Below, piece by piece: positions 15,094-33,815 of a stretch of DNA of 36,324 bases. The number at the start of each line of letters is the position of its first letter. Position 1 is the first letter of the stretch. The notes below the pieces were generated by a model that was given only the letters and a program-made list of their open reading frames with translations, had not been told where the DNA came from and made no database searches. The translations under genes and the position numbers were made by a program. Source of the stretch: an uncultured Desulfuromonadales bacterium (GTDB taxonomy: Bacteria; Desulfobacterota; Desulfuromonadia; Geobacterales; CAIOGM01); the NCBI GenBank assembly GCA_903929485.1, contig CAIYUY010000060.1, positions 1 through 36,324 on the forward strand. The letters run 5' to 3'.

Positions 15094-15112
15094 GGCAATA
15101 CTTCCTTTCATA

Positions 15113-16009: not shown

Positions 16010-16047
16010 AAGAGCTCCATGTAGATAATTCTAAAACCGGGAGAGAC

Positions 16048-17541: not shown

Positions 17542-19064
17542 GCCCCTCCACTCTCCAGCGTAAAATAAAACGTGGCCCCTCCACCCGGTACGGCCTCGGC
17601 CCGGATCGCGCCGCCATGGCGCTGAATGATCCGTTGCACCGTGGCCAGGCCGATCCCCAGCCCCTTGAGGCCGTCGAATCCCGGCAGACGCTGGAACGGC
17701 ACGAAGATCTTATCCGCCGCGGCAGGATCGAAACCGGGCCCATTGTCCCTGACAAAATAAGTAGCGCCCCCCGGTTGCGCCGTTACCCCAAACTCGATAA
17801 CCGCGAGCTTCCGGTTACCGGTATACTTCCAGGAATTACCCAGCAGATTCTGTAACACCAAAAAGAGCAACTGCCGGTCGGCGTTAGCCGTTACCCCTTC
17901 ATGAATTTGGAACACAACCTGTCGTCCCGGCTCGGCCTTGCCCAGATCTGCTGCAACGATTCGTGCAATATCACTCAAATCCACCGGTTCCCGTTGCAGC
18001 TCTTCACGGGAGAGCCGGGAAAAATCCAGGAGAGCGGTAATGATCTGCTCCATCCGGACCACCCCTTGGGAAATTTCCTCCAGGTACCGGCAATAGCGCT
18101 GATCCAGCAGGTCGGCGTTATGCTTCAGCACAACTCGACTGTACCCCCCTATCCACTGTAACGGGCTGCGCAGATCATGGGCGACGGTATAATTGAACGC
18201 CTCCAGCTCCCGATTGGCGGCTTCCAGTTCAGCGGCCCGGGCCGCGAGTTCGCCATTGAGGAGCCGGATGTCCGCCTCGGCCTGATTCCGCACGGTCACA
18301 TCCTCGGACACCGCCGCAAAGCTGACGATCTCTCCGGTTTCGCCGCGCAGGGGGAAGATCGAAACCGCCTCCCAGTAGAGATTGCCGTTTTTATGCCGGT
18401 TCTGCAATTCGCCACGCCACTCCCCGCCGGAAAAAATGGTGCGGCGAAGCTCATCGTAAACCTGGGGGGGGATGACGTCCGATTTGAGAAAGTGCGGGTG
18501 GCGCCCGATGACCTCCGCCGCGGAGTAACCGGTCAGCATGGTGAAGCGGGGGTTGACGTAGGTGATGATCCCTTGAGCATCGGCGATAACCACCGAACTG
18601 GGACTTTCGTCCACGACCCGGGAAAGGAGACGAATGTGGGCGTCCTGAGCCTTCACCCGCCGGTTCATGGCATGGAGTGCTCGACATTTGTCGGTGACGG
18701 CAAAGAGCTTGCGGTAATCAACCGGTTTCAGCACGTAATGGTTGAAGCCGATTTCTATGGCGTTCAACAACTGATCGGTGTCGCTATGCGCGGTGACGGC
18801 GATAATGAAGGTATCCGGATTCAGCTCCCGTATGGCCGATGCCATCCGAAGACCATCCATGACCGGCATCCGGATATCGGTGATGACGATCTCCGGCTGC
18901 CGCTCCCGAAACAGCTCCAGGCCGCTGCGGCCGTCTCCGGCGACATAAAGCCTCAGCCCCGGATAGTTCTTCATGAGCATGCCGCTCACCAATTCCCGGA
19001 CATCGGCCTCGTCTTCCACGTACAGCAGCGAACTCTCCGTAACGCTCCGCTCTCCCTCACCCAT
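17538..19064 (-). CDS. REC-PAS hybrid histidine kinase (first tandem paralogue)
   Basis: A 508-residue soluble kinase. Receiver ~12-125 with D63 in IVITDIRMPVMDG and KPVD; PAS ~147-262 (IADAQGIITYVNPRFTMLTGYS); coiled coil; HisKA with H296 in NYTVAHDLRSPL; HATPase_c with LLGNSWKYTGN, DNGPGFD and GLGIGLATVQR. It has the same architecture as the next gene and differs there mainly by a 7-residue longer linker before the His domain, so the pair arose by tandem duplication. I start at ATG 19064, one base after the stop of the upstream kinase with GAGG upstream; the open frame to 19109 would overlap that gene. No membrane anchor is present. Confidence 0.9.
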   Translation of the reverse strand: MGEGERSVTESSLLYVEDEADVRELVSGMLMKNYPGLRLYVAGDGRSGLELFRERQPEIVITDIRMPVMDGLRMASAIRELNPDTFIIAVTAHSDTDQLLNAIEIGFNHYVLKPVDYRKLFAVTDKCRALHAMNRRVKAQDAHIRLLSRVVDESPSSVVIADAQGIITYVNPRFTMLTGYSAAEVIGRHPHFLKSDVIPPQVYDELRRTIFSGGEWRGELQNRHKNGNLYWEAVSIFPLRGETGEIVSFAAVSEDVTVRNQAEADIRLLNGELAARAAELEAANRELEAFNYTVAHDLRSPLQWIGGYSRVVLKHNADLLDQRYCRYLEEISQGVVRMEQIITALLDFSRLSREELQREPVDLSDIARIVAADLGKAEPGRQVVFQIHEGVTANADRQLLFLVLQNLLGNSWKYTGNRKLAVIEFGVTAQPGGATYFVRDNGPGFDPAAADKIFVPFQRLPGFDGLKGLGIGLATVQRIIQRHGGAIRAEAVPGGGATFYFTLESGGA

Positions 19065-19065
19065 G

Positions 19066-21123
19066 TCAGACCTCGATCCTGAATTCCGCGCCGTCGTCCC
19101 TGTTGACAACGGTCAATCTCCCCCCCATGTTGCTCTCAATGATAGTCTTTGCCATGAAGAGGCCGAGCCCGGTGCCCTGTTCCGGCCCCTTGGTAGTAAA
19201 ATAGGGATCAAAAATCTTGTCCAGTATCTCCCGGGGAATTCCCCCGGCGTTATCCCTCACCGTCACCGTCGTCCGCCCCTGTTCTTCACTCAATCCGATA
19301 CTGATAACAGGCTCAACGGTGGCGCGCTCAACGTGGGCATCCCTGGCGTTATTGAGGATATTCAAGAGGACTTGGGAAAATTCATTGGGGTAACCGACGA
19401 TTACCGGGTCGGTGCCGGTCTCCACCTCAACCCGAATCCGGAGCGATCCGAGGCTGCCACCCACCAGGGACAATGTCTTTCCGATAACCTGACTGACCTC
19501 AAAGGGGACCTTCTGCTTGTCCGGCCGAAAAAAACTTCGGAAGTCGTCGATGGTCCGGGACATATGGTTAATCACCTGCATGGACTTTTCCACACGGGCA
19601 TCCAGGAGTTCCTTGGTGAATTCGCCCAGTTCATAGGAAAGCGACAGATCCTGAACCGCCAAACCCAGGGTGTTCAGCGGCTGCCGCCACTGGTGAGCTA
19701 TGTTGCCGATCATTTCCCCCATGGCCGCCAGACGGTTCTGATGCATGAGCAGATGATCTTTTTCTCGAAGTTCTTCCAAAGCCCGCAGCCGTCGGGCGGT
19801 TTCCTGCTGTAGCGCCTGCTCCGCATCCCGGCGGCGCGCCTCCCTGTCAAAATTATCCAGGGCAAAGGAGATATCGCCGGCCATCTGTTGCAGAAGCTCC
19901 ACCAGTTGCTGGTCAAAATAGTCCGGCTCCCCGGCGTACAACGTAAACGCGCCGACGGCCTTACCGTTTTGCCGCAAGGCAAAAGCAGCGGCGGAGCAGA
20001 ATCCGGAGGCAACGGCCAGGGTATGCCAGGGAGAGGATGGATCAGCGGGAAAATCATTGCAGACATGATGCGAATTTTCGCGGATGGCGCTCCCCGTGGG
20101 CTCGAACCCCCTGGGTTCCGCCATGATGAAGGCGCTGACGGTTTCCAGATAAACAACTTTTTCACCAAAAGACGCCACCGGCCGCAGTGAGCCGGACTCT
20201 TCCACCAAACCGATCCAGGCCAGCAGAAATCCTCCATGGTCAATGGCTATACGACAAAACTCACGGAACAGCTGCTCCCGGTCAGAGAAATGGACGATGG
20301 CCTTGTTGGTTTCGCTCAAGGCCGTATAAAGCCGATTGAGCCGGCGGACCCGGTGCTCGGCAAGCCGGCGTTCCGTAATGTCGTAAAGCGTGGAGCGGCT
20401 CATCAGATACCGACCTTCCTGATCGGTAACCGTCGTGGCGCTCAGGGAGACAGGGAGAACCGTTCCATCCTTGCGCAGCAGATCAAACTCCAGATTCTGA
20501 ACGGCGCCATATTTTTTGAACCGTTGAAAATTAGACTGGAACGTCCGGAAACTTTCCCGGGTGAGGAGATCCGGGAATTTCATCTTACCGATGATCTCTT
20601 CCCTTTGATACCCAAGCCACTGGAGTTCAGTATCATTAATCCTGAGATAGCACCCTTCCGCGTCCAGGGAATGATAGCCGCAGGGGGCGCGCTCATAGAG
20701 ATCCTGGATCTCCGCGGCGGATTTAGCCAATTCAGCCACTTTACGCCGCAGCTCCCGATTCCGGGCCTCCTCGGCCTCCCTATAGACGCTGATGTCGTGA
20801 ACGACGGAGAAAAGATAGCAGCGACCGCCCATCTCCAGGGGGCCGGAGCGCACCTCAACGTCCCGCAGTGAACCGTCGGCGAGACAATGCCTGCCGATAC
20901 GACGTGATCCCTTTTCCGCAACCCCCCGCCAACCGGATCGTTGGCTGTCATCCGTCGTCACGGCGTCAAGATCGGCACGATTCAACGTCTTGAATCGCTC
21001 CGGTGCATACCCATAGAACGTACAGGCAGCGGAATTGACGTCCAGCACTGCTCCCGTCTCCGGGTCACTGAGGAGCATGATCGTGTGATCGTTGCGAAAG
21101 AAAAATTCAGAGCAGACGTCCAT
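19066..21123 (-). CDS. PAS-PAS-GAF sensor histidine kinase
   Basis: A 685-residue soluble sensor, first gene of the five-gene operon. PAS1 ~10-115 (TIMLLSDPETGAVLDVNSAA), PAS2 ~140-255 (YLRINDTELQWLGYQREEIIG), GAF-type domain ~270-425, coiled coil, then HisKA with H477 in IGNIAHQWRQPLN, the subtype common in delta- and epsilonproteobacteria. HATPase_c has LLNILNNARDA, DNAGGI, IFDPYFTTK and GTGLGLFMAK. No TM helix, so cytoplasmic cues (redox, ligand or light) are likely. ATG 21123 is preceded by a weak GGAAATC. It has no receiver of its own; the two downstream REC-kinases and the REC-GGDEF are candidate phosphoacceptors. Confidence 0.9.
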   Translation of the reverse strand: MDVCSEFFFRNDHTIMLLSDPETGAVLDVNSAACTFYGYAPERFKTLNRADLDAVTTDDSQRSGWRGVAEKGSRRIGRHCLADGSLRDVEVRSGPLEMGGRCYLFSVVHDISVYREAEEARNRELRRKVAELAKSAAEIQDLYERAPCGYHSLDAEGCYLRINDTELQWLGYQREEIIGKMKFPDLLTRESFRTFQSNFQRFKKYGAVQNLEFDLLRKDGTVLPVSLSATTVTDQEGRYLMSRSTLYDITERRLAEHRVRRLNRLYTALSETNKAIVHFSDREQLFREFCRIAIDHGGFLLAWIGLVEESGSLRPVASFGEKVVYLETVSAFIMAEPRGFEPTGSAIRENSHHVCNDFPADPSSPWHTLAVASGFCSAAAFALRQNGKAVGAFTLYAGEPDYFDQQLVELLQQMAGDISFALDNFDREARRRDAEQALQQETARRLRALEELREKDHLLMHQNRLAAMGEMIGNIAHQWRQPLNTLGLAVQDLSLSYELGEFTKELLDARVEKSMQVINHMSRTIDDFRSFFRPDKQKVPFEVSQVIGKTLSLVGGSLGSLRIRVEVETGTDPVIVGYPNEFSQVLLNILNNARDAHVERATVEPVISIGLSEEQGRTTVTVRDNAGGIPREILDKIFDPYFTTKGPEQGTGLGLFMAKTIIESNMGGRLTVVNRDDGAEFRIEV

Positions 21124-21401: not shown

Positions 21402-22508
21402 ATGACAAGCACCGTTTTCTTCGCGGATCTTAGGACAGGCGCGAAAGAGAATCTGTTCCACAAGATCGGCAGGCTCATGCGGCAGTGCGGCCTGGAGGAG
21501 TGCATCGCCCCCGGAGACCTGGTCGCGGTGAAGGTACATTTCGGGGAACGGGGGAACCACAGCTTCATCAGGCCGGTCTTTCTCCGGCGGGTCGTTGAGG
21601 AACTGCAACAGTGCGGCGCCCTCCCTTTCCTCACCGACTCCTCAACTCTTTATCCGGGAGAACGTAAGGAAGCAATCTCGGCGCTCCGCTGCGCCATCGA
21701 AAACGGCTTTGCCTACGCCACCGTAAACGCTCCCCTGATCATGCTGGACGGCCTCCGGGGACATACCGCCGTGGAGGTTCCCGTTGCGGGGGAGTTGCTG
21801 AAAAAAGTCTCCATCGGCGCCGCCATCGTGGAGGCCGACGCCCTGGTGGCGGTCTCCCACTTCAAGTGTCACGAACTGACCGGATTCGGCGGCGCTCTCA
21901 AAAATCTGGGGATGGGGTGCGCCGGCCGTGAAGGGAAGATGCTGCAGCACTCCACCGTCGGCCCCACGGTCTCGGCGAAACGTTGCAGCTCCTGCGGCCG
22001 CTGTGTCACCTCCTGCGCCCACGACGCCATCTCCTTCCCTGCCGGAACCGCCTGGATCAATGAGGAACTCTGCGTCGGCTGCGCCCACTGCGTCACCGCC
22101 TGCCCGGAAAAGGCGATCAACATCCGGTGGGACGAAGCCGGCGATCTGGTCATGAAAAAAATGGCCGAACACGCCCTGGGTGCGGTGGCGGGTAAAAGGA
22201 GTAAATCCCTGTTTCTCAACTTCATCACCCAGGTTTCGCCGGCCTGCGACTGCTACGGCTATAGCGACGCCCCCATTGTCAACGACATCGGCATCTGCGC
22301 CTCCATGGACCCGGTAGCCCTTGACCAGGCCTGCGCCGACTTGGTAAATGGGGCAAGAGGGAATCATGAAACCGCCCTCCAAGAGGGGTTCGAACCGGGG
22401 GGGGATAAATTCCGGGGGGTCTACCCGATGGTCAACTGGGAAGTGCAGCTGGAACATGGGGAAAAGATTGGACTGGGGAGCAGGGCATATAACCTGGTGA
22501 AACTCTGA
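21402..22508 (+). CDS. DUF362 protein with two 4Fe-4S ferredoxin clusters
   Basis: A 368-residue protein. The N-terminal ~185 residues are a DUF362 domain (VAVKVHFGERGNHSFIRP, SHFKCHELTGFGGALKNLGMG). A bacterial ferredoxin insert follows with C195-C198-C201-C205 and C224-C227-C230-C234 (CSSCGRC..., CVGCAHCVTACPEKA), enough for two 4Fe-4S clusters. The family's CDC segment (SPACDCYGYSD) and a DxVALDQA segment lie near the C-terminus. The biochemical role of DUF362 proteins is not settled; electron transfer is likely from the clusters. ATG 21402 follows GGAGG at ideal spacing, whereas the frame's first ATG at 21324 does not. Monocistronic, ending in a strong terminator. Confidence 0.88.
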   Translation: MTSTVFFADLRTGAKENLFHKIGRLMRQCGLEECIAPGDLVAVKVHFGERGNHSFIRPVFLRRVVEELQQCGALPFLTDSSTLYPGERKEAISALRCAIENGFAYATVNAPLIMLDGLRGHTAVEVPVAGELLKKVSIGAAIVEADALVAVSHFKCHELTGFGGALKNLGMGCAGREGKMLQHSTVGPTVSAKRCSSCGRCVTSCAHDAISFPAGTAWINEELCVGCAHCVTACPEKAINIRWDEAGDLVMKKMAEHALGAVAGKRSKSLFLNFITQVSPACDCYGYSDAPIVNDIGICASMDPVALDQACADLVNGARGNHETALQEGFEPGGDKFRGVYPMVNWEVQLEHGEKIGLGSRAYNLVKL

Positions 22509-22599: not shown

Positions 22600-24120
22600 C
22601 TACGGTATGGGCGCTATGGCCGGATGACGATCCAACTCCTGCCCCTTGGCATGCCCCTTCACCGCTCTCATCAACGCCTTGACCTCTTCCGGCATATCCT
22701 TGCCGTTCTTCATGGCAGCCTTCATCTGTCCCGCCAGGTACGAGTGATTGATAAAAATATCCAACACCGACAGCATGAACTCCTGCTTCCAGGGGGTGAG
22801 TTCGTGCAGATGCTTGAATTTATGCATGTAAAATTTCTGCGCGGCCTTGCCAAGCTCCATTTCGAGCTCTTCCACCGTCATGTTTTTCGGCTTTATTACC
22901 GCCTCCACCAGGTTGTATTTACTGTAATCCTTGGTAAATACATACGGTTCCAGCTGCGGGTACAGGTCCGCGTAGGGCCAGGGGGCGATCGCCAGGAAAA
23001 AGGCCATGTCCGGGTTATAATGCATGGCAAGTTCCACTGTCTGGGCGATTGACTCGGAAGTATCGTCGGGAAGACCGAGAACAAGCGAGGTCTCCGAAAC
23101 GATATCGGCGGCATTGATAATGTCGATGGCCTGCTTGGAATGGGATACTTCAGTATCTTTATTAAAGAGATCCAGCGTCTCCTGGGATCCGGCTTCAACC
23201 CCCACATAGATATGCTCCACACCGGCTTTCTTATATTTCCACATGATATCGGCGTCGCGGAGAATATCATCCACACGGGTTTCCATGAGGAGTTTGACCG
23301 GAACCTGGCGCTGGATCATCAGATCGAGTATTTTCTCCCAGCGCAGACGATCATAGGTCGGCAATTCATCGGCAAGCATGGCTACTTCAACGCCGTAAGT
23401 TGTACTCAGCATCTCGATCTCGTCAACAACGTTCTCGGCGGAACGGGCGCGCCAGGTCTGCGCCCAGAAGAGCTGCTGGGAACAGAAAGAACACTGGGAC
23501 TTGCAACCGCGAGCCGTGGAGATGATAGCCAGCCGGGCGTTTTTCTTGGCGCGATAGGTATAAATCGGCCACTCCACCAGATCCCAGGCTGTGGGAAGAT
23601 TATCCAGATCGTGAATATAGGCGGCCTTGGGGGTAACCACAACCGCGTCATCCCGCCAGAACGCAATTCCGTTCACCGAGGAGGGATCACCGACGGCGTT
23701 GAGACAGTCCAGCAATTCAACAAGTGTTACCTCCCCTTCACCGCGAACGATATAGTCAAGGACTCCGTGACTCTCCTTGAGCAGTTCATCATAGCAGAAG
23801 GCGGCATGGACATTTCCCAGCACCGTAACGACGGAAGGATTGATTTGCTTGGCCAGATCACACAATTCCAGAGCCTTGCAGATGGAGGCGGTATAGGCCG
23901 TTGTCGCGATGACATCCGGCTTGAACGTCTCCATGCGAGCCTTTATCTCCGGCCACTTGTGCCAGAGTGACATGGCGTCATAATAGTCCACCTCGTACCC
24001 GGCGGCGCGCAACGAGCCGGCCATGTAGACAAACCCCACATTGAGCCAAGTACCGGCCGACTCAACAACGCCGGAATGGTACGGAGGGGTGATGAGTGCT
24101 ACTCTCTTGATCTTGTTCAT
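22600..24120 (-). CDS. BchE-like B12-type radical SAM protein
   Basis: A 506-residue protein. The N-terminal ~180 residues resemble the cobalamin-binding half of BchE-type enzymes (PYHSGVVESAGTW, AGYEVDYYDAM, VTVLGNVHA, DYIVRGEGE). No DxHxxG motif is present, so if cobalamin binds it is without the lower His ligand. The radical SAM core starts at TARGCKSQCSFCS, with C206, C210 and C213 for the 4Fe-4S cluster. A C-terminal helical region of ~120 residues follows. BchE makes the fifth ring of bacteriochlorophyll; nothing else here suggests phototrophy, so this is a paralogue with another substrate. ATG 24120 follows AGGGG. The LuxE-like gene and a second radical SAM gene lie upstream on the same strand. 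Family firm, reaction unknown. Confidence 0.85.
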   Translation of the reverse strand: MNKIKRVALITPPYHSGVVESAGTWLNVGFVYMAGSLRAAGYEVDYYDAMSLWHKWPEIKARMETFKPDVIATTAYTASICKALELCDLAKQINPSVVTVLGNVHAAFCYDELLKESHGVLDYIVRGEGEVTLVELLDCLNAVGDPSSVNGIAFWRDDAVVVTPKAAYIHDLDNLPTAWDLVEWPIYTYRAKKNARLAIISTARGCKSQCSFCSQQLFWAQTWRARSAENVVDEIEMLSTTYGVEVAMLADELPTYDRLRWEKILDLMIQRQVPVKLLMETRVDDILRDADIMWKYKKAGVEHIYVGVEAGSQETLDLFNKDTEVSHSKQAIDIINAADIVSETSLVLGLPDDTSESIAQTVELAMHYNPDMAFFLAIAPWPYADLYPQLEPYVFTKDYSKYNLVEAVIKPKNMTVEELEMELGKAAQKFYMHKFKHLHELTPWKQEFMLSVLDIFINHSYLAGQMKAAMKNGKDMPEEVKALMRAVKGHAKGQELDRHPAIAPIP

Positions 24121-24268
24121 TTCTATCCCCTTGGTGCCCCACGCTGCCGAGACGACGGCAGGTGTCAGCCACTCTTCGCATATTCATGAGGAGTATAAAC
24201 CGGGACATCGTAAAGGAAAAGATGAGGTAAGTCCAGAAAAAAGGGGGAATATCCACGGTGGGGAATCA

Positions 24269-24298
24269 AATAAAGAACAGAATTTTGACAAAGGTCAA
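24269..24298 (-). promoter_or_regulatory. Possible promoter of the BchE-like gene
   Basis: Reading leftwards, TTGACC (24293-24298) and TTTATT (24269-24274), 18-bp spacer, just downstream of a terminator hairpin and 150 bp before the start codon. It suggests this gene can be transcribed apart from the LuxE-like pair. Confidence 0.4.
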
Positions 24299-24306
24299 GA
24301 ACAAAG

Positions 24307-24337
24307 ATACCGGCCGGGATAAGCACCCGGCCGGTAT
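24307..24337 (-). terminator. Hairpin after the small membrane protein gene
   Basis: Perfect 12-bp stem ATACCGGCCGGG (24307-24318) with CCCGGCCGGTAT (24326-24337), 7-nt loop. On the minus strand it is followed by CTTTGTTCTT, a moderate U-rich tail. It lies 38 bp after the stop codon of the membrane protein gene. Confidence 0.65.
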
Positions 24338-24375
24338 GCGGAAATAGAAATTGCTCGGTAACCGGTGGAGGCCGG

Positions 24376-24726
24376 CTAGTGAAATACCTTTCTGAATATG
24401 GCAAGGTAGCCGGCCGCGAAACAGCCGAAAAGAATGACATGTTTGTACATCAGCATCTTCCTCCGAACCCGTTCGGCGTCGGCGCCATACCAGTTCTCCA
24501 CGTAGGTAAAAGTACGACCGGCGCCGGTGGCCATGATGATGACCATGGCCACGACGCTTCCCCAGAAAAAGAGCCGCTCCAGACTGTTCAGCACCGAAAC
24601 GACCTCCGGATGATCCAGATGGGCGTTGTGCAGCAGGGCAATGGTGACAATGGCCGCCAGCCAGATACCCGCGGCAAAATCATGAAGGAATCCGTTGAAG
24701 ATAATCGCGCTTTTTTTCAGATCCAT
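24376..24726 (-). CDS. Small multi-helix membrane protein
   Basis: A 116-residue protein with three to four hydrophobic helices: FNGFLHDFAAGIWLAAIVTIALL, LERLFFWGSVVAMVIIMATGA, and KHVILFGCFAAGYLAIF. Histidines at HDF, LLHNAHLDH and YKHV, near or in the helices, could bind haem or metal, but there is no family match I recognise. ATG 24726 follows GGAG at 8 nt. It is 70 bp after the LuxE-like gene on the same strand and before a terminator, so the two are probably co-transcribed. A membrane partner of the neighbouring enzymes is inferred from position only. Confidence 0.65.
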   Translation of the reverse strand: MDLKKSAIIFNGFLHDFAAGIWLAAIVTIALLHNAHLDHPEVVSVLNSLERLFFWGSVVAMVIIMATGAGRTFTYVENWYGADAERVRRKMLMYKHVILFGCFAAGYLAIFRKVFH

Positions 24727-24796
24727 GGAAGCAGCTCCGCTACACCAAAGGGGTCAACAATTACGTCCGGGATGACAAGCAACGAACGTGCGGTTG

Positions 24797-26281
24797 TCAG
24801 CTCTTGGGAGTTTTGGGGATAAGTGAAGGTCCCGGCTTCTCCGACTGAATGCCTTCGGGATGATCCTTCAACAGCTGCTTGTCCGATTCCCCCGTGTACC
24901 ACTCCATCGGCCGGTCGCTCTGGTCCCTGAAGGTGTTCAGCGCCTCGTCACGCAACTGTGCGGCCTCCTCGTCGGACTGGGCCATGAGAATCTCGTCCAC
25001 CACCTGCGGGCAGGAGGCTACCGAACCGGGACGAGCCTCGATCTCTTCGCGGATGCTGGGCGCCACTTTCTGGTCCTTGGCGATGCGCATTTTCAGATCT
25101 ATGGAAAAATTTACATAGGTCTCAAGCATCCTGAAGATAGTCGAGTCCCCCATGGCGCTGATCGGTTTTTCATCCGGCAGCGGCGAGACCTTGCCGTTTT
25201 CGATCTTGGCCCTCCCCACCATCTCGCAGCCGGTGCCGCCATCGGTGGTGTAGCCCAGGTTGTCGGTGATGACCGCCAGGACCGTGGGGACATTGGCCAG
25301 ATCCCAATGGGCAAGAAGACCGATCTCTCCGTCGGGAAGCGGCGTAAGCTTGTCAATATCCATGGCCAGAACCCGTGACCAGGGAGGGACAGGGCGGGTC
25401 CGTTTGCGCGGAGGGAGCCCCTTCACGTGACGGCGCAGGGAATCGTCAAACAGGTTGGTCGCCGTTTCGGCCTCTCCCAGGACGTTGACACAGTGAGAAT
25501 CGGGGACCTCAAGGATCTCCGTGACCATGGCCAGATAATCCGCGCGGGTCACCACGCCGAATCTCCCCCGATAGCCGCCGCCGTCGCAGACCCGGCTCCC
25601 CGGAGGAAGGTGAAACGACATCTTCTTCCTCCGGCACGCCTGGAAGAAATAGACATAGGCCGAGGTGGCGCCGATGAGAGCCACCGGCACGCCGCTGGCC
25701 TCCGCCTCCCGCAGCGCCTTAATGAGACCTTTCACGTCGATGCCGCTCCTTCCCAGGAGGAACATGCTGTCCGGTGTCCCGAATGCCTGGCGCGTCTGCT
25801 CCATCCCGATGGCCATCCCCATGGAGGGGGCCATCTCCGGACTGGGGGCAAGAATCAGTATCCGGCACCGCTTCCCCTCCTGGAAATCAGGGAAGAGATA
25901 CGCACCGGTCATGGTCTTATTGGCGGCGAAAACAAGCTTTTTACCGTCTTCATCACGAAAAATTCTTCCCCGCTGCGTCAGACTGGTGGTGCCGCCGGTG
26001 AGGCAGGCCATCACCGACTGCTCCAGCGGAAACGAGGCCACCAGGTGGGTCTTGAACATGTCATTATACACCAGTGGCACATCCTGCCACCGGGTGACAT
26101 CCTCCTTCTTCACTTTCTTGGCGTCGCAGAATTCACGGAAAATTTTGTTCGTCTCAAACTGTAAGGCAAACAGTTCCAGGGCATGTTCATTGAAGGAGGG
26201 AAGTTCGGCATCAACTCCCGCGGCGATGACGCCAAGGGTAGCCTCGGTCAGGCGATGAGTGTCGCTGCTGTTCGTAGACAT
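24797..26281 (-). CDS. LuxE-like acyl-activating (acyl-protein synthetase) enzyme
   Basis: A 494-residue member of the LuxE/phenylacetate-CoA-ligase-like adenylating family. Diagnostic segments: FNEHALELFALQFETNKIFREFC near the N-terminus, the nucleotide-binding LTGGTTSLTQRGRIFRDED (~92-110), CDGGGYRGRF, NVLGEAETATNLFDD and TDNLGYTTDGGTGCEMVGR, the adenylate-binding C-terminal part. LuxE activates fatty acids with ATP and carries them as acyl-enzyme to the LuxC reductase; no LuxC is here. At 494 aa it is well over the ~370 usual for LuxE, mostly through an acidic C-terminal tail of ~110 residues. CAGGAGT precedes ATG 26281. Its position between two radical SAM enzymes suggests activation of a carboxylate made or modified by them, which is inference. 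Confidence 0.8.
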   Translation of the reverse strand: MSTNSSDTHRLTEATLGVIAAGVDAELPSFNEHALELFALQFETNKIFREFCDAKKVKKEDVTRWQDVPLVYNDMFKTHLVASFPLEQSVMACLTGGTTSLTQRGRIFRDEDGKKLVFAANKTMTGAYLFPDFQEGKRCRILILAPSPEMAPSMGMAIGMEQTRQAFGTPDSMFLLGRSGIDVKGLIKALREAEASGVPVALIGATSAYVYFFQACRRKKMSFHLPPGSRVCDGGGYRGRFGVVTRADYLAMVTEILEVPDSHCVNVLGEAETATNLFDDSLRRHVKGLPPRKRTRPVPPWSRVLAMDIDKLTPLPDGEIGLLAHWDLANVPTVLAVITDNLGYTTDGGTGCEMVGRAKIENGKVSPLPDEKPISAMGDSTIFRMLETYVNFSIDLKMRIAKDQKVAPSIREEIEARPGSVASCPQVVDEILMAQSDEEAAQLRDEALNTFRDQSDRPMEWYTGESDKQLLKDHPEGIQSEKPGPSLIPKTPKS

Positions 26282-26477
26282 GAAGTGACTCCTGTATGAT
26301 CCGCTGGTTTAACAACACGATAATCTACTTCGGCAGCATGGCTATGCATTTTTCGCGCCAAGGTATCAGTGGAGATACTGATTGAATAAGCCGTCTCGAC
26401 ATGAAAACAGGGAGATCCCCCGGCGGACAGTTGCCGTTTTATTAAGCAAAAGTGCCTATAAACCGCTCGACTGACGC

Positions 26478-27815
26478 TTACCCCAGCCGCTGCTTGCAGC
26501 GTAGCGAGGGGCTATCCAGCTTCCACTGCTCGTAGCAGATTTTCATCCCCTTGCGCACCGGAAGCTGATTCATCAGCGAGATGATGTGGGCATAGGGAAA
26601 ACCGGAGAGTGGGACATGCCTCATATGACCCAGTATCCGCCCCAGGCTCAATATTTCCAGGGAGCTTTCATAAAACTGCTCTTCCCGAACCTCCGGAGTC
26701 ATGGCGGGATCGGGGTGCTCGAACAGAGCGTAAGCGCCGGAGTAGTACTCCCATCCCAAATCCTTATAGAGATACGGTTCGTACTGGCGGCGGAGCTCCG
26801 TCCCCGGGTAGGGGACAAGAAGAGACGGGTGCATGCTGACCCCAAGTCGATCAGCCACCTCCACGGAACGCTTGAAGTCATCAAGAGAGTCGGTCCGCCC
26901 CCCCAGCATGTAAAAGAGGGAGACGTCAATGCCGTGATCCCGGAGGATCTTGATGGCCCGCTCCCGGTCCACCCCGATCTTGCCATCGGCCTTATACGCC
27001 GTCAGCGAATCGTCGGAGATGGAATCCCAACCAACCCAGACGGTAAGCATGCCCGATTCCCGGGCCGCCTTGAGCATGCGCGATCCGGCGGGGGTCATGA
27101 CCGGCCGCAGACTCCCGAACCCCATCCACTTCTTGCCGCTCCCTTTGAGGGCCGTGAACATGTCCGTTGCACGCTGCTCGAATCCCTGCCACCAGATATT
27201 CTCGTCACCGTTGATATACATCTTTTCCGGAATGGCAGCCACATCCCGCACCACATGATCAATGGGACGAAACCGGATATCCGCCCCGTAGAACGGCTTG
27301 ACCGAACAGAAGGTGCAGTTATAGGGACAGCCACGGGAGGTATTGAGTATCCGGAACTGATGTCTGTCCTGGAGCATCCCGTACAGCGGCGTAGGGAGAT
27401 CGTCCAGTGGAATCTGCTCCCCCTTGTAGAACGGCTTGAGAGTCCCGGCGCGATAATCTTCCAGAACCTGCGGCCAGGAACTCTCGGCTTCACCCACCAC
27501 CACAGCGTCGCCATACTGCTTGGCCTCTTCCGGCATGGCGGAGGCATGCATGCCGCCGAATACCACCGTGATCCCACGGGCGCGGAGTTTTTGCGCAATC
27601 CGGTAGCCGGGCACGGAGGTGGGGGTCAGAATGCTGATGGCCGCCAGATCGCACTCCAGGGTATCGAAGGCGTTAGGGGTAGCGCTGGCGCTGATCAGCT
27701 TGATTTCTATGGAGGGGTCGCATCTGCGAGTCAGGGCGGCAAGATATTCCAGAATCGGCGGTGCGACCGGCGTCCAACCAAAAGGAAGAGGGGGGAAAAT
27801 AATGGCAAGTTTCAT
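26478..27815 (-). CDS. B12-binding-type radical SAM protein
   Basis: A 445-residue protein. An N-terminal Rossmann-like domain ~1-125 has the order of B12-binding radical SAM enzymes (IIFPPLPFGWTPVAPP, DLAAISILTPTSVPGYRIA, VVFGGMHASAMPEEA, DAVVVGEAE) but no DxHxxG motif. The radical SAM core begins at TSRGCPYNCTFCSV with C163, C167 and C170, and includes GDENIWW, VGWDSISDDSL and FYMLGGRTDS. Methylation or rearrangement of an unactivated carbon is typical of the class; the substrate is unknown. The start ATG abuts the stop codon of the lipoprotein gene upstream (TAGATG) with AAGGAG inside it, so translation is coupled. It is only distantly like the BchE-like protein at 22600-24120. Confidence 0.85.
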   Translation of the reverse strand: MKLAIIFPPLPFGWTPVAPPILEYLAALTRRCDPSIEIKLISASATPNAFDTLECDLAAISILTPTSVPGYRIAQKLRARGITVVFGGMHASAMPEEAKQYGDAVVVGEAESSWPQVLEDYRAGTLKPFYKGEQIPLDDLPTPLYGMLQDRHQFRILNTSRGCPYNCTFCSVKPFYGADIRFRPIDHVVRDVAAIPEKMYINGDENIWWQGFEQRATDMFTALKGSGKKWMGFGSLRPVMTPAGSRMLKAARESGMLTVWVGWDSISDDSLTAYKADGKIGVDRERAIKILRDHGIDVSLFYMLGGRTDSLDDFKRSVEVADRLGVSMHPSLLVPYPGTELRRQYEPYLYKDLGWEYYSGAYALFEHPDPAMTPEVREEQFYESSLEILSLGRILGHMRHVPLSGFPYAHIISLMNQLPVRKGMKICYEQWKLDSPSLRCKQRLG

Positions 27816-28334
27816 CTAAAACCGTATCTCCTTCTTTCCGAAGAGCCTCTCGGCGAACCCCTTAAGATCTTCCAGAGGCTCGGACGACACCTTGCCGTCC
27901 ACCCCGCTCTCCAGTTTGGAGATCATAACCAGACCAAACGTTCCGTCGGTTGTAATGACAAATTTCACCGCCAGACCCTGGGCGGTGACACCTCTCCCAA
28001 GGGTGGCGGCGTCAAGCGCTTTCCCGTCAAACCAGCCGATGCAGTCGATATAAATCTTCCCGTTATTCGCCCTGATTTCACTCCATTCATGGCGCGTGAA
28101 ATAGGGATACGAGTCCAGCGCCCCGCCGATAGTCACGGAAGGATAAGCGGGAAGACTCTTTGTCTTGAGGACATCCATGAATTTGACAACATCGCCCTTA
28201 CTGTCGGCGGCAGTATGAACCAGCTTCTGCCCGCTCTTGCTTCCCTTTTCCTGCCGGCTCTCCGGGCTCTTTCCGGAACAACCGGAGAGTGTCAGGGAAA
28301 GGGCGGCGGTGACAACAATGAACAATTTCTGCAC
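27816..28334 (-). CDS. Small lipoprotein coupled to the radical SAM gene
   Basis: A 172-residue protein starting at GTG 28332-28334, 8 nt after GGGGAG. The signal peptide QKLFIVVTAALSLTLSGC ends in a lipobox with Cys19, so it should be acylated and anchored in a membrane. The mature part, with KFMDVLKTKSLPAYPSVTIGGAL and WFDGKALDA, has no domain I recognise. The open frame continues to 28463, but that extension lies in the repeat element and is spurious. Direct abutment with the radical SAM gene implies a shared transcript. Whether the lipoprotein takes part in the same process is unknown. Confidence 0.75.
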   Translation of the reverse strand: MQKLFIVVTAALSLTLSGCSGKSPESRQEKGSKSGQKLVHTAADSKGDVVKFMDVLKTKSLPAYPSVTIGGALDSYPYFTRHEWSEIRANNGKIYIDCIGWFDGKALDAATLGRGVTAQGLAVKFVITTDGTFGLVMISKLESGVDGKVSSEPLEDLKGFAERLFGKKEIRF

Positions 28335-28381: not shown

Positions 28382-28648
28382 CTAGTACCCCGTCCGGCTT
28401 AAAGTTTCGTGATACTTTGAACCGCAAAGACGCAAAGTACGCAAAGAAAATAGAGAAAAACAACGAACCTGGATTCTTTTTCGGTATATCCCAAAAAAGG
28501 CTTTAACTTTGCGGTTCCTTTGCGTCCTTTGCGTCTTTGCGGTGAAACTTTTTTGTTTTTCGTCGTGTCGGTGAGTTATCTTACGAATCACGGTTCACTC
28601 GGGCTCCTTGGGGTGCATACCGCAATATCAAGCCGGACAGGGTACTAG
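28382..28648. repeat. 267-bp element of nested inverted repeats (MITE-like)
   Basis: Outer ends are 19-bp inverted repeats matching at 18 of 19 positions: CTAGTACCCCGTCCGGCTT (28382-28400) and 28630-28648. Inside lies a second pair, a 26-base arm at 28421-28446 built on CGCAAAG units and its complement at 28518-28543 (25 of 26), with AAGTTTC/GAAACTT also paired. The CGCAAAGACGCAAAG motif is a widespread bacterial intergenic repeat known for producing spurious reading frames. No transposase is encoded. The right end overlaps the ccsA stop codon. No clear target-site duplication was found. Confidence 0.8.
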
Positions 28649-29472
28649 GTGTGCTCGATCCTGAAGCCGGAATGAAAAGTCTCCACCGAGAAGGGAATTC
28701 CCCAGTAGCTGACGATCATCGCCACCAGGGCGATGAGGGCATACCATGCAAGTTTACGTCCGCGCCAGCCGAAAGTGATCCGGAGATGGAGATAGATCCC
28801 GTAGGTGAGCCAGGAAACAAGGGACCAGACTTCCACCGCATCCCAGTTCCAGTAATTTCCCTTCACCTGATTGGACCAAAAACAGCCGGAGACCAGCATG
28901 AGACCATACAGGATGAACCCACCGGAAATAAAGCGATACGAAAGGTCGTCTATGGCGGCCAAATCAGGGAGTTTGTCGTACAGTGGGCCACTGTTTCGCT
29001 CCTTGAGCAGGTAAAGGAGCCCCAGACCGGCCGCGATGAGGACCGATGCGAAACCCGCCGAGGCGCCGACGATATGTACCCAGATCCAGCCGCTCTGCAA
29101 CGCCGGCGCCAGGGTGCTGGCCACCTCCTTCATCAGCGTGCCGGCCCAACCCAGGAGCACAAAGGCGACAGGCATGACCAGAACACCCAGGGGGCGGACC
29201 TTTTTGGTGGAGAATTGGATGATGAGAAAGACGAGCACCGTCATGAAAGTGCCCAGCGTGATGGACTCGGAAATGGAGATGAATGGACTGATTCCGGTTG
29301 CCGACCAACGGAGTGCGATCACCCCCACATGGGGCAAAAAACCGGCCAGAGCGCTGAATAAACCCAGGGTGAAGAGCTTCTCCTGGCGCGCCATAAGGCC
29401 GAAAATGAAGCTGAAGGTACTGACGCCGTACAATCCCACGGCGATCCAGAAGAGCATTAGTTCGGGTTTCAT
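28645..29472 (-). CDS. ccsA: CcsA/ResC-like haem-handling cytochrome c synthase subunit
   Basis: A 275-residue polytopic membrane protein of System II cytochrome c maturation (also named CcsB in some databases). About eight TM helices. The tryptophan-rich haem-binding WWD segment is GNYWNWDAVEVWSLVSW near residue 215, with a Lys in place of the usual first Trp. Conserved His candidates include FLPHVG (~48), WVHIVG (~132) and YLHLRI (~240). With CcsB/ResB it moves haem across the inner membrane and attaches it to CXXCH motifs. GGAGACCTC precedes ATG 29472. It follows the ResB gene by 83 bp and lies in the same run as the multihaem cytochrome, its likely client. Its stop codon is inside the end of a repeat element. 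Confidence 0.9.
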   Translation of the reverse strand: MKPELMLFWIAVGLYGVSTFSFIFGLMARQEKLFTLGLFSALAGFLPHVGVIALRWSATGISPFISISESITLGTFMTVLVFLIIQFSTKKVRPLGVLVMPVAFVLLGWAGTLMKEVASTLAPALQSGWIWVHIVGASAGFASVLIAAGLGLLYLLKERNSGPLYDKLPDLAAIDDLSYRFISGGFILYGLMLVSGCFWSNQVKGNYWNWDAVEVWSLVSWLTYGIYLHLRITFGWRGRKLAWYALIALVAMIVSYWGIPFSVETFHSGFRIEHT

Positions 29473-29555: not shown

Positions 29556-30725
29556 TCATTGCCCCTTCCGTGGTTTGGGCCTGCCACGCAGCATCCGCCC
29601 CATGGTCGTAATAATCATCCCCGCCAGACCGATCCAGAGACTGGCCAGGACGATGAAGTTTCCCGGCTCGTACCGCACCGTCATTCCGACCCAGTACCGC
29701 ACCTCTTTGGGCGCGAGCTGATAGTCACCGGCGACATACCTGCCGCCGATTGGCGCATTACCCTGGGCAAAGGGCTTATCGTACAGCGGCTTACCGTTTT
29801 TATCCAGGGGAAAGAGCGCAAAGTGCGCCACCCCGTCCCGTTCATTCAGTTTGGAAAGGGTATAGCCCAACTGAAGAGCAAATAAGGGCTTTTCCGGAGA
29901 GTTCGGAAAAGGAATCACATCGGTCATCACCCTCTCCCCCTCCCTGTAACCGGTTGAGTAGGTGAAACTCCCGTCCTTTTGACGAATGCTCTGCAACGGG
30001 ATATGGCCGCCGTACAGTTCCTTCCCCTGACTGTCGGCAAGCAGCACCAATAATGAGTACCCCTCCCGGTCGTTGAAATAATCAACTCCATGATGGGAAA
30101 GTTTATGAGTTATGTAGATGATCCCCTTCGTGCTGTCGATCCCCTCACCCACCTGGACCTCGTAAGCGGCCCGTTTATTCTCGGCGCCGACCTTATAGCC
30201 GGAAAGCATCTTAAGGAGGGTAGTCTCCCCCTTCAAGCGGGAAAAGTTAAAATAACGCCCCTGCTGGAAGCTATCGTAACTGCGGGGATCACCGCTGGCC
30301 AGCGACTCCCCCTCGGTCAACCGGATGTTACCACGGAAATAGAACAGACTGTTGTAGACCACCCCCAGCAGGATAGTGACAAAACAGAGGTGAAAAAGGA
30401 TCATGCCGAAGGAGATCAGCGTGACCCTTCTCCCCCAGATTCTGCCAAAAAAGCAGCAGGCGATGTTCACCACCAGGAGCACCAGGATGGAGTTGAACCA
30501 GAGGGTGCCGAATACCATGCGACCGGCCTCGGCGCCGCGCCAGAGTGTAACACCGGAGATACAGCAGGCCAGGATCGTCACCAGAAGCAGCATGGCGAGA
30601 CGCGCGGACGCCAGGAAATCATAGATTTTTCGGGGTAGCTTGTGGATCGGGTGATAACGTGGTTCCAGGGGGAAAACTTCCTGCTCCGGTTCATTATCGT
30701 CGGGTGGCATCATGGAATCATTCAT
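29556..30725 (-). CDS. ccsB: ResB/CcsB-like cytochrome c biogenesis protein
   Basis: A 389-residue membrane protein of the ResB family, partner of CcsA in System II. TM helices near residues 40-62 (LAMLLLVTILACCISGVTLW), 75-95, 103-125 and the C-terminal FIVLASLWIGLAGMIITTM give the family's four-helix pattern, with a large extracytoplasmic domain between helices 3 and 4. HLCFVT in helix 3 holds a likely haem-linked His. It is shorter than many ResB proteins (about 450-550). ATG 30725 is 9 nt after AAGGAC. It is 55 bp after the TMTC-like gene and upstream of ccsA. Confidence 0.88.
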   Translation of the reverse strand: MNDSMMPPDDNEPEQEVFPLEPRYHPIHKLPRKIYDFLASARLAMLLLVTILACCISGVTLWRGAEAGRMVFGTLWFNSILVLLVVNIACCFFGRIWGRRVTLISFGMILFHLCFVTILLGVVYNSLFYFRGNIRLTEGESLASGDPRSYDSFQQGRYFNFSRLKGETTLLKMLSGYKVGAENKRAAYEVQVGEGIDSTKGIIYITHKLSHHGVDYFNDREGYSLLVLLADSQGKELYGGHIPLQSIRQKDGSFTYSTGYREGERVMTDVIPFPNSPEKPLFALQLGYTLSKLNERDGVAHFALFPLDKNGKPLYDKPFAQGNAPIGGRYVAGDYQLAPKEVRYWVGMTVRYEPGNFIVLASLWIGLAGMIITTMGRMLRGRPKPRKGQ

Positions 30726-30780: not shown

Positions 30781-32349
30781 CTATTCCATCTCCCTCACCG
30801 CACGGCGAGCGGTTTCTGATTCCGGATTTGACCGGAGAATCTGTTCATAAAGATTCCTTGCCGCGGCCGTCTGCCCGGTGTTCTTATATACGGAAGCCAG
30901 AAGGAGCAGAGATTCCAGGTCGTTGGGAGTAATGGCGCACAATTTTTCCAGGGAGAGCTGCGCCGCATACGGATTATTCACCCGCAGGGAGACCGTCGCG
31001 GCAAACCTCAAGACATCCGGTGAGGAGGGAAAGTTACCCTGTAATTTCTCCGACAGCGCCAGCAATCCGTCGGCATCGCCCTGGAGAAAATTTTGGTCGT
31101 TGAGGATCTTGAAGTCGATCCGCTCCCTGTTCTGAAGGATGATCTGTTTGTATAAGCTGAAACTGTTCCGCCACGTTTTAGCCTGGAGATAGGTGGACCA
31201 AGGGAGCAGGAGACAGATAAGAACGGTTACCACCGCCACGGGGCGCCCGGCTTTCTCGTACTTTTGCCGTATGAGCCTGAGCACGACGGCAAGAAATCCC
31301 GCCGCGCCAACCATGGGAAAATACAGATACCTGTCGTTTATCAGGGTTACGATAGGGACAATTTGCGAGACCGGGAGGAGTCCCACGAAGAAAAGAGCGT
31401 ACCAACAGAAAAGCTCCCTGTTTCTCCTCAGCAGGTAAAAGCCCAGGAACAGTAGGAAGAGCGCCACGAGTGCCGAAAGGAAGACCTCCTCGTCAAAAAA
31501 AGGCTTTGCCGCCAAATCCCCATAAAAGACGGTCAACCCGACCGGATAAAAAATATTCCGGAGATATTTCAGCAGAACGGGAAGCATGGTAAAGAACGTG
31601 GCCAGCGGAGAGCCGCCATGGTACTCCGTTCTCCCGCCGAATCTTGATGACTCTTGGGAGTAGAGTGTCATGCAGGCGGCGGCAAGAGCAATTAATAAAA
31701 AAGGGATCTTATCTTTTACCCTGGTAGCGCGACTACCCTGTTTCCGGTATACGTCGTCATGACAGATCAAACAGACAGGCAGAATAAGGGCAGTGGACTT
31801 GCTCAAAAGCGCGGAGACGAAACAGAGCAGCGAGAAGAGATACTTTTTCCCGCTTCCCCCTCCAAGATACGAGATATACAGATGAAATGCGGAGAGAAAA
31901 AAGAACATGGAAAGAACGGTTTTTCTTTCCGACATCCATACTACCGACTCGACCTGGACAGGGTGAAGTAAAAACAGGTATGCCGCTAAAACAGCGTAGC
32001 GAGGTGCAAGAGTGCTCCTCAGGAGCAAAAAATAGATAAGAACGCCGTTGAGGATATGAATAACGATGTTAGTGAGGATGAAACCGGCCGGATCCAGCCC
32101 GGAAATCTCATAGTTGAGCATGTACGAGATGATATGTAACGGAGCATAATTACCGCAGTAAAAACCGGTAAAAGCGCTCTTCGCATGCGCCCACGAAAAA
32201 CCTTGGACGCTGGGGTTGCAGAGGAGATAGGGTGTATCGTCATACAACGGAATGAAGTCATGTCCGATTGAGGGAAGATACACCGCAAGAGTGGCGGTGA
32301 TCAAAAACAGGCAACAGAGTATGATTTCACCTTTTTTAAGCCGTTCCAT
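30781..32349 (-). CDS. TMTC-like multi-pass membrane protein with TPR tail
   Basis: A 522-residue protein with about ten TM helices followed by TPR units. The first loop has the acidic motif LYDDTPYLL and HIISYMLNYEISG, and helix segments read LFLLHPVQVESVVWMSERKTVLS, a pattern of bacterial relatives of TMTC/PMT-type glycosyltransferases (GT-C fold). C-terminal residues ~430-520 form two or three tetratricopeptide repeats (LESLLLLASVYKNTGQTAAARNLYEQIL). It would transfer a sugar from a lipid carrier to an exported protein or lipid, but catalysis is not proved by these motifs. I start at ATG 32349; a TTG eight codons upstream is possible. It lies between a propeller lipoprotein and the cytochrome maturation genes. 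Confidence 0.75.
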   Translation of the reverse strand: MERLKKGEIILCCLFLITATLAVYLPSIGHDFIPLYDDTPYLLCNPSVQGFSWAHAKSAFTGFYCGNYAPLHIISYMLNYEISGLDPAGFILTNIVIHILNGVLIYFLLLRSTLAPRYAVLAAYLFLLHPVQVESVVWMSERKTVLSMFFFLSAFHLYISYLGGGSGKKYLFSLLCFVSALLSKSTALILPVCLICHDDVYRKQGSRATRVKDKIPFLLIALAAACMTLYSQESSRFGGRTEYHGGSPLATFFTMLPVLLKYLRNIFYPVGLTVFYGDLAAKPFFDEEVFLSALVALFLLFLGFYLLRRNRELFCWYALFFVGLLPVSQIVPIVTLINDRYLYFPMVGAAGFLAVVLRLIRQKYEKAGRPVAVVTVLICLLLPWSTYLQAKTWRNSFSLYKQIILQNRERIDFKILNDQNFLQGDADGLLALSEKLQGNFPSSPDVLRFAATVSLRVNNPYAAQLSLEKLCAITPNDLESLLLLASVYKNTGQTAAARNLYEQILRSNPESETARRAVREME

Positions 32350-32408
32350 CGCCGCCCTGCCGCTCTTGCTCAAGAGTCATGGTCTGAGTCACTCGCAACA
32401 GCATACCG

Positions 32409-33815
32409 TTACAGGGGCGCAACTTTCCAGGCCAGACGATTTCCATCCTTCACGCCATAGGCGATGGATTTGCCGTCCGCGGTAAACTTCACCCTTGAAA
32501 CCTGCTCATAGGGAGGATGAGCCGCAACCGTTTTTGCCAGAGTATCGGCAAGCACCACGAAACGCTTCCCGTCCTTCCTGGCGCGATAGGCGACATGTTT
32601 ACCGTCAGGGCTGAACAGCGGTTCAACCACCTTGTCAAATGCCGGCCCCTCGTTGCCGTTCACCACGACAAACCAGTTTTTGCCGGTTCTCGCCGCATAG
32701 GCATAGCTCCCGTCATTGCCGTAGGTCAGAGTGGAAGCCTCGTCGTAAATTTTCCCCTTCTCCCTCCCGTTGATAAAACAGTGATGCAGTGAGATACGAT
32801 TATTCTCGGCAAGGAGAATCCCGACCCCTTTTTTGTCGGGACGGATTACCGGCAGCTCGGGAGCACGCCCGGCGGGAAGGAGCTCTTCCCTGTCATCGAG
32901 TTTTATCAAACGGCTGCCGCCTTTGAGAGCGCAGTAGGAGATCGATCGTCCATCATCACTCAGCGTCAGCTGCTCGATGACATCATACAGCGGACCCTCG
33001 CGAAAGAGATCAGGCTTGTCAAACATCAAATCGATGACACGGAATTTATTTTTCACCGCCTCCACAGCGGCGATACGTGTTCTGTTCTTATTTATCACCA
33101 AAACTTCATCCCCAATGGAGATCCTGCCGCGCTGTTTGTGAAACAGCAGATCAGTCACGATTAAACGAGTATCACCTATGGAAGCCGCCGACTCCACATA
33201 AGCAATGGAAGAGGAATCCGAGCTGAATAACGGTGGAGAATAACTGGCGGGGGTACCCTGATTCGGGGCGCCGTCCACGATGATGTACCATTTATCCGCA
33301 TCCTTCGCCTGATACAGAAGATGTTTACCGTCGGGGCTGAAGATGGGGGTAAGCACCGTATCGTAACGTTTCCCCTCCTTGCCGTCTACTACCATGCACC
33401 ACTTCCGGTCATTACCATCAGGATGAGCGCCATACGCCAGACGACTCCCGTCAGGGCTGAGCACTATGGTTGCGATCTCGGGATACTCTTTCCCCCGCTC
33501 CTGATTATGAACAACGAAGAAGCGATTATCCTTGCCGGCCAAATAAGCCACGCTACTGCCCGAATCGCTGAAAGCCACCTGAAATGAGTCAGACTTCCCC
33601 GGTAACGTGGGGTCCGGCTCATGGCCGGGTAACGCCGGTGGCGGTTTCAGATCATCCGGGATGGTCGCCACCACTGTTGTGCCGGCTCCGCTCTCCTTGG
33701 CGGATTGCGGCGCAATCTTCGCCTTTTCCTGCCGCCCGGTGCATCCGGCAACGGAGATGAACAGAACCAGACAAAAACAGACGGTACCCCTTGGGAGAAT
33801 CGATAATTTCTTCAC
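32409..33815 (-). CDS. Beta-propeller lipoprotein (WD40/PD40-like)
   Basis: A 468-residue protein. The signal peptide ends in lipobox VAGC with Cys25, so it is probably an envelope lipoprotein. After a Pro-rich linker (~45-75) there are repeated blades with SPDGK-type turns: LSPDGSRLAYGA, FSPDGKHLLYQAKDADKWYIIVDG, LSDDGRSISYCA, FSPDGKHVAYRARKDGKRFVV and FTADGKSIAYGV, as in TolB/PD40 propellers. A recurring FVVxNGxEGxxYD segment suggests a specialised subfamily. The start is GTG 33813-33815, 9 nt after GGAG. It is 59 bp ahead of the TMTC-like gene. Function unknown; protein or ligand binding in the envelope is likely. Confidence 0.8.
   Translation of the reverse strand: MKKLSILPRGTVCFCLVLFISVAGCTGRQEKAKIAPQSAKESGAGTTVVATIPDDLKPPPALPGHEPDPTLPGKSDSFQVAFSDSGSSVAYLAGKDNRFFVVHNQERGKEYPEIATIVLSPDGSRLAYGAHPDGNDRKWCMVVDGKEGKRYDTVLTPIFSPDGKHLLYQAKDADKWYIIVDGAPNQGTPASYSPPLFSSDSSSIAYVESAASIGDTRLIVTDLLFHKQRGRISIGDEVLVINKNRTRIAAVEAVKNKFRVIDLMFDKPDLFREGPLYDVIEQLTLSDDGRSISYCALKGGSRLIKLDDREELLPAGRAPELPVIRPDKKGVGILLAENNRISLHHCFINGREKGKIYDEASTLTYGNDGSYAYAARTGKNWFVVVNGNEGPAFDKVVEPLFSPDGKHVAYRARKDGKRFVVLADTLAKTVAAHPPYEQVSRVKFTADGKSIAYGVKDGNRLAWKVAPL

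Follow-up and report, generated by a model that had tools for sequence, protein, structure and literature searches.

A 36,324-nucleotide stretch of DNA from an uncultured Desulfuromonadales bacterium of the Geobacterales (contig CAIYUY010000060.1, the whole of which is termed here the window) carries five minus-strand genes, at positions 22600–28334, that make up the distal half of a larger conserved cluster and not a stand-alone lipid pathway. They encode a BchE-like radical SAM protein, a small membrane protein, a LuxE-like ligase, a second B12-type radical SAM protein (rSAM2) and a lipoprotein. In Geobacterales and in Nitrospirota, the BchE-like, rSAM2 and LuxE-like genes are inherited with a specialised CcsB and usually with ResB, a PD40 lipoprotein and a multihaem cytochrome. 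The locus is tied in this way to the assembly of cytochrome c and not demonstrably to lipids, with haem modification as the leading but unproven reading, and the cluster suggests a so far unrecognised route to a modified haem. Quite possibly, the module produces or alters a tetrapyrrole (probably haem), which a dedicated synthase attaches to the cytochrome of the cluster. No description of the gene set was found in the open-access literature searched, a search outside which subscription papers mostly fell.

A sequence-only reading of the window had described the five genes as a locus of two radical SAM enzymes around a LuxE-like ligase. All five open reading frames (ORFs) were confirmed at their positions, and the gene identities given there were correct, Pfam supporting B12-binding and Radical_SAM domains on both radical SAM proteins and LuxE on the third. 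The placement of the five genes stood; the boundary had been drawn too early, the conserved unit extending upstream through CcsB, ResB, TPR, PD40 and multihaem cytochrome genes to the contig end (28645–36322).

The wider distribution of the cluster was followed by searching 58 relatives for LuxE and inspecting 20-kb neighbourhoods, in which the same set was found in many genera of the order, and by a scan of GTDB genomes, which gave 42 loci from Geobacterales isolates and metagenome-assembled genomes (MAGs) and from Nitrospirota. Within Geobacterales the cluster spans several families; it is also present in Nitrospirota, and the order cytochrome, PD40, ResB, CcsB, lipoprotein, rSAM2, LuxE, membrane protein, BchE-like is largely common to both phyla. 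The recurrence of the set across genera, families and two phyla takes it beyond chance, and the earlier view of the genes as one unit was correct. The low-GC Nitrospirota loci were typed on six-frame ORFs with hidden Markov models (HMMs) made in this analysis; the loci studied here were also the source of these families, so that hits cannot count as independent of how the cluster was defined, and labels in distant loci are tentative except where checked by Pfam or NCBIfam. Two loci from other Desulfobacterota families (L093 and L094) have the arrangement cytochrome, ResB, CcsB, membrane protein, BchE-like, LuxE.

Co-occurrence of the core genes is close to one-to-one. Among the 58 relatives, rSAM2 (>880 bits) is present in 20, all of which have a LuxE-like gene (22 LuxE-like genomes in all; hypergeometric 1e-13). 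The same 13 of 198 Nitrospirota genomes hold both rSAM2 (at least 519 bits) and the specialised CcsB (at least 340 bits; hypergeometric 1e-20), and a full-length LuxE-like protein (>970 bits) is found in 12 of these 13 (hypergeometric 2e-18), the thirteenth, G426, having a relative at 368 bits. One further genome, G488, was left out of this count, its rSAM2 relative scoring 604 bits and its CcsB only 260 bits. The bit-score cuts were set after the scores had been seen, and the hypergeometric values exaggerate significance, since neither phylogenetic kinship nor gene linkage enters into them. Identity between the phyla is 71–80% for CcsB, rSAM2 and LuxE, 56–64% for the BchE-like protein, 48–65% for ResB and 41–48% for the membrane protein (one partial BchE match in L080, at 23%, being omitted). 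The common identity level of CcsB, rSAM2 and LuxE fits a module whose members travelled together.

The unity of the locus is strongly supported. Scattering of the genes in relatives, named by the sequence-only reading as what would undo the idea of one unit, was looked for and not found. Where the set is split it is still complete, as in Geobacter argillaceus (G013), one contig of which carries CcsB and rSAM2 and another the BchE-like, lipoprotein, ResB, PD40, membrane protein and LuxE genes. Chance adjacency is ruled out by the two-phylum conservation, the near one-to-one co-occurrence and this split but complete set. It is very improbable that the locus is an island of unrelated respiratory and biosynthetic genes co-inherited by linkage, as might be read from the variable genes between core members (TPR genes, lipoprotein, paralogues) and the differing orientation of LuxE; persistence of the set in two phyla with rearranged order, together with the G. 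argillaceus arrangement and the co-occurrence counts, has already largely refuted it. An artefact of MAG assembly or binning is also unlikely given several isolates and one Nitrospirota copy (L082) on the closed chromosome CP070669.1, which argues against contamination as the source of the Nitrospirota copies. One MAG, G348, also holds a Geobacterales-like BchE copy (1021 bits), which may be contamination.

The BchE-like product contains PF02310 (91.8 bits) and PF04055 (64 bits) domains with invariant C206, C210 and C213, and is 75–94% identical across the order. Its best curated family is TIGR02026 (BchE), at 395.7 bits, short of the cut-off of 481.35, with the next family at 154.7; the other BchE-like types score 391–437 bits, TIGR02026 being the clear top for every type tested and the next family reaching at most 165. 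A maximum-likelihood tree divides all BchE-like proteins together with phototroph BchE from the rest of the class B radical SAM proteins at 100/98 support, long branches being flagged, and phototroph BchE forms its own clade beside the BchE-like clade. The window enzyme is thus BchE-related yet not classifiable as BchE, its score lying below the family cut-off and its clade being separate. BchE itself serves in making chlorophyll, where it is responsible for ring-E closure on protoporphyrin. It needs cobalamin and takes oxygen from water when it oxidises the 13-propionate of Mg-protoporphyrin monomethyl ester (PMC7242693). The window enzyme shares with this anaerobic Mg-protoporphyrin IX monomethyl ester cyclase the B12-binding and radical SAM architecture and about 36–38% identity over 90% of the length; it differs in that its hosts are not known phototrophs and that cytochrome genes surround it in place of photosynthesis genes.

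BchE-like orthologues have a wider distribution than LuxE or rSAM2, and their association with cytochrome-c synthase genes extends to loci that lack both. Of 11 such Geobacterales loci, 8 have ResB within 8 kb and 9 have a multihaem cytochrome there; of eight such Nitrospirota loci (L133–L140), all have ResB and CcsB within that distance and seven have a cytochrome. The chance expectation for a ResB so near is about 3–5% per locus (some 3% for Geobacterales, where about six ResB matches per genome are assumed). Elsewhere in Nitrospirota, BchE-like proteins are fused to SRPBCC (PF10604-type) domains in L141, L142 and L144 and adjoin them in L143, L145, L148 and L149, several of these loci also holding a 135-residue membrane protein.

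By PF01578 and the WxWD motif (invariant W208, W210, D211 and E214) beside PF05140, CcsB and ResB are assigned as a system II cytochrome-c synthase. CcsB scores 165.9 bits against the equivalog TIGR03144, below the cut-off of 187.6, and belongs to a diverged clade. Synthases of system II carry out both the export of haem and its attachment, and some are dedicated to special cytochromes, such as NrfI for CXXCK and CcsA1 for CX15CH motifs (PMC12285233). As in the Wolinella NrfI and CcsA1 systems, a specialised CcsB/ResB gene stands here by its likely multihaem substrate, besides other ResB genes in the genome; in contrast, no radical SAM, LuxE-like or CopD-like partners are described there (PMC12285233). 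The window cytochrome passes the CxxxxCH/CxxCH family TIGR01904 (35.5 bits, cut-off 27). Aligned with 18 others, it has a C-terminal core with one wide-spaced site at a fixed place in both phyla, which is CX3CH in the window (residues 385–390 of the open ORF), CX4CH in most others and wider in a few.

This site, the TIGR01904 match and the precedent of NrfI and CcsA1 lend themselves to another explanation, in which the target of the radical SAM enzymes and the LuxE-like protein is the apocytochrome, modified for example by C-methylation or a side-chain link near the unusual haem site, the haem being ordinary and the synthase serving non-canonical sites only. Such a role is improbable: BchE belongs to a small-molecule enzyme family, the LuxE-like ligase lacks a clear role in peptide modification, and BchE-like genes also stand beside ResB and CcsB at L135–L138, where the cytochromes have no CX3–4CH site. 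These LuxE-free loci rule out CX4CH sites as a general explanation of the BchE-like enzyme, so any importance of the site could be confined to the window-type (type I) cluster.

The LuxE-like product matches PF04443 at 55.7 bits, above the cut-off of 24.9, and reaches 55.8 bits against the equivalog NF052244, whose cut-off is 550. Its residues 35–348 align to the solved LuxE 7xc6_E with the motif segments included; the alignment stops before the C-terminal acyl-accepting Cys region, and a C-terminal extension starts at about residue 350. The AlphaFold2 model is too poor for use (predicted local distance difference test score, pLDDT, 39.7). Relative to the LuxE acyl-protein synthetase of luminous bacteria, the adenylation core is homologous (to 7xc6_E), whereas the score far below the equivalog level, the extension and the lack of LuxC or LuxD among annotated window proteins set it apart; neither was found among the window proteins scanned, the search being confined to the window. 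In four other Desulfobacterota loci (L095–L098) a LuxE relative stands beside a LuxC-like reductase and a homocitrate/isopropylmalate-synthase-like enzyme, with homoaconitase-like large and small subunits typed in L098 and a TIGR04190-type B12 radical SAM protein in L097; this is possibly a chain-elongation and acyl-reduction pathway.

Among the remaining members, rSAM2 comes near the cut-off of no NCBIfam family. The 116-residue membrane protein has a three-helix AlphaFold2 model (pLDDT 85.6) and scores 15.4 bits against CopD (PF05425), below the gathering threshold of 32.1; CopD is matched, mostly weakly, by 13 of 15 members of its family, the best at E 1.3e-5. By hhalign it is homologous to the 135-residue protein of sister clusters. 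The lipoprotein has no Pfam match; its family is 27–42% identical and often lies upstream of rSAM2.

LuxE being a fatty-acid-activating family, the ligase could instead activate a fatty, other lipid or quinone carboxylate that the two radical SAM enzymes modify at the membrane, with the membrane protein partnering a quinone or lipid and the cytochromes belonging to the same respiratory chain. There are radical SAM relatives with lipid substrates (the HpnR, HpnJ and ladderane families appear among the lower-scoring matches), and some Nitrospirota BchE-like genes adjoin SRPBCC lipid/polyketide-type proteins. This is unlikely, although less so than modification of the apocytochrome. The BchE score is about 2.5 times that of any lipid-acting family, and no recurrent lipid-biosynthesis gene was seen in the clusters, whose recurrent partners are the specialised cytochrome-c synthase and multihaem cytochromes. 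The sequence-only reading had proposed chemistry on a membrane lipid carboxylate; genomic context lends it no support, since ResB, CcsB and multihaem cytochromes recur even by BchE-like genes that lack LuxE and rSAM2.

The best explanation, we infer, is that the cluster works as a single unit to build a special multihaem cytochrome. In the haem-modification reading, the BchE-like enzyme would act in the cytoplasm on haem or a haem precursor, and the LuxE-like enzyme would adenylate a carboxylate, most simply a porphyrin propionate, a role likened to that of the methyl ester needed by BchE. A LuxE-type ligase is attractive, as a hypothesis only, because BchE requires its propionate esterified, and an activated propionate is what such a ligase could provide. 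A further change such as a methylation would be performed by rSAM2, and the three-helix CopD-like protein might hold the product in the membrane until the dedicated CcsB and ResB export it and attach it to the cytochrome, perhaps at the invariant CX3–4CH site. The occurrence of an FtrD-like iron-sulfur membrane protein and ABC permeases in the paralogous type III clusters described below was counted as support. A bolder form of the proposal is more doubtful than its core: that anaerobic metal-cycling bacteria of two phyla have a new pathway in which BchE-type and second B12-type radical SAM enzymes and a carboxylate-activating ligase make a modified haem that a dedicated CcsB/ResB attaches covalently, giving a new class of c-type haem.

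Partial precedents exist. In haem d1 biosynthesis, haem is modified by radical SAM chemistry for a dedicated respiratory enzyme, but haem d1 is not attached by ResB/CcsB thioether chemistry and other enzyme families are involved. Cytochrome 579 of Leptospirillum (Nitrospirota), a c-type (CXXCH) cytochrome, carries, in covalent linkage, a novel haem of unknown structure (PMC8126622). It is of the same phylum as some cluster hosts and combines CXXCH with an unusual covalent haem (PMC8126622), but is a small monohaem protein that forms an octamer, whereas the cluster cytochrome is multihaem.

Several points weigh against haem modification. The substrate is deduced from the enzyme family and the neighbouring genes, and the clusters showed neither a BchM-like methyltransferase nor any other porphyrin gene. 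An unusual attachment site alone can explain a dedicated synthase. A Nitrospirota subgroup of BchE-like genes (L141–L149), mostly fused to or adjoining SRPBCC, has no ResB and one CcsB-like match within 8 kb, so the BchE-like family is not tied to cytochromes everywhere and its wider membership may have other substrates. LuxE in other Desulfobacterota stands beside LuxC and chain-elongation enzymes, and a fold search with the membrane protein gave no match at E <0.9 and none to a haem protein. Lastly, a strong terminator splits the BchE-like gene from the rest of the cluster, and in many Geobacterales loci LuxE is inverted, on the strand opposite to its neighbours; synteny, not a single transcript, is therefore conserved, and co-transcription is not general.

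Paralogous clusters, termed type III, contain CcsB, ResB, an rSAM2 relative, the 135-residue membrane protein, an FtrD-like protein, ABC permeases and one or two BchE-like genes. In L118, L117 and L122 (Geobacterales), the FtrD-like iron-sulfur membrane protein and FtsX/MacB-type ABC permeases lie beside cytochrome-c synthase genes and BchE and rSAM2 paralogues. A second locus in the genome of the window itself (L115, G000:C364) has two BchE-like paralogues and a CcsB. A conserved 119-residue membrane protein with no Pfam match adjoins BchE-like paralogues in L119, L120, L115, L117, L121 and L112.

Within the window (Table 1), the abutting lipoprotein stop and rSAM2 start codons and the intergenic hairpin reported earlier are both present in the sequence, the latter with a 12-pair stem and T-rich tail at 24337–24307. 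As for the candidate promoter, matches are no commoner than chance (4 found, 4.3 expected), and an Rfam scan of the window found nothing. The DUF362/4Fe-4S gene lies near the BchE-like gene in L033, L044, L086 and L105 as well. A run of sensor-kinase, response-regulator and chemotaxis-receptor genes at 13045–21123 adjoins the cluster, and TPR proteins similar to the 30781–32373 product recur, at times in runs, within these clusters.

Table 1. Features of the cluster and its flank in the window.
Feature	Position	Strand	Evidence and remarks
DUF362/4Fe-4S protein adjoining BchE-like gene; peripheral	21402..22508	+	PF04015 180.3 bits; kept in only a few loci
BchE-like B12-binding radical SAM protein, 506 aa	22600..24120	-	CxxxCxxC at C206/C210/C213; TIGR02026, tree, alignment
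Intrinsic-terminator-like hairpin	24307..24337	-	12-pair stem and T-rich tail; between small membrane protein and BchE-like genes
Small CopD-like membrane protein, 116 aa	24376..24726	-	Three long helices; invariant H15, H33, H96 (alignment)
LuxE-like acyl-adenylating enzyme, 494 aa, C-terminal extension	24797..26281	-	PF04443
rSAM2, B12-type radical SAM protein, 445 aa	26478..27815	-	CxxxCxxC at C163/C167/C170; PF04055 and PF02310 above cut-off
Lipoprotein, 172 aa, GTG start	27816..28334	-	Lipobox LSGC; stop codon abuts rSAM2 ATG
CcsB cytochrome-c synthase subunit, WxWD motif, specialised clade	28645..29472	-	PF01578 115.3 bits
ResB-like cytochrome-c synthase partner	29556..30725	-	PF05140 54.3 bits; syntenic in relatives
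Multi-pass membrane protein, C-terminal TPRs; variable cluster member	30781..32373	-	TPR families; in only some loci
PD40 beta-propeller lipoprotein	32409..33815	-	PF07676; TmcD-like 86.8 bits, below cut-off; syntenic in both phyla
Multihaem c-type cytochrome, 5' end cut by contig end	33932..36322	-	TIGR01904; 12 CXXCH, 2 CX4CH, a CX3CH site

The co-occurrence and context data make the haem-modification reading directly testable in cultured Geomonas, Geotalea or Citrifermentans. If it is true, a function would be found for a large BchE-like clade in non-photosynthetic bacteria, and haem c would not always be attached as plain haem b, some cytochromes of extracellular electron transfer carrying a tailored tetrapyrrole whose potential is shifted or whose linkage is new. 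It would then bear on the unidentified covalent haem of Leptospirillum cytochrome 579, offering a genetic handle on such haems, and on how Geobacter relatives and subsurface Nitrospirota tune the flow of electrons to minerals.

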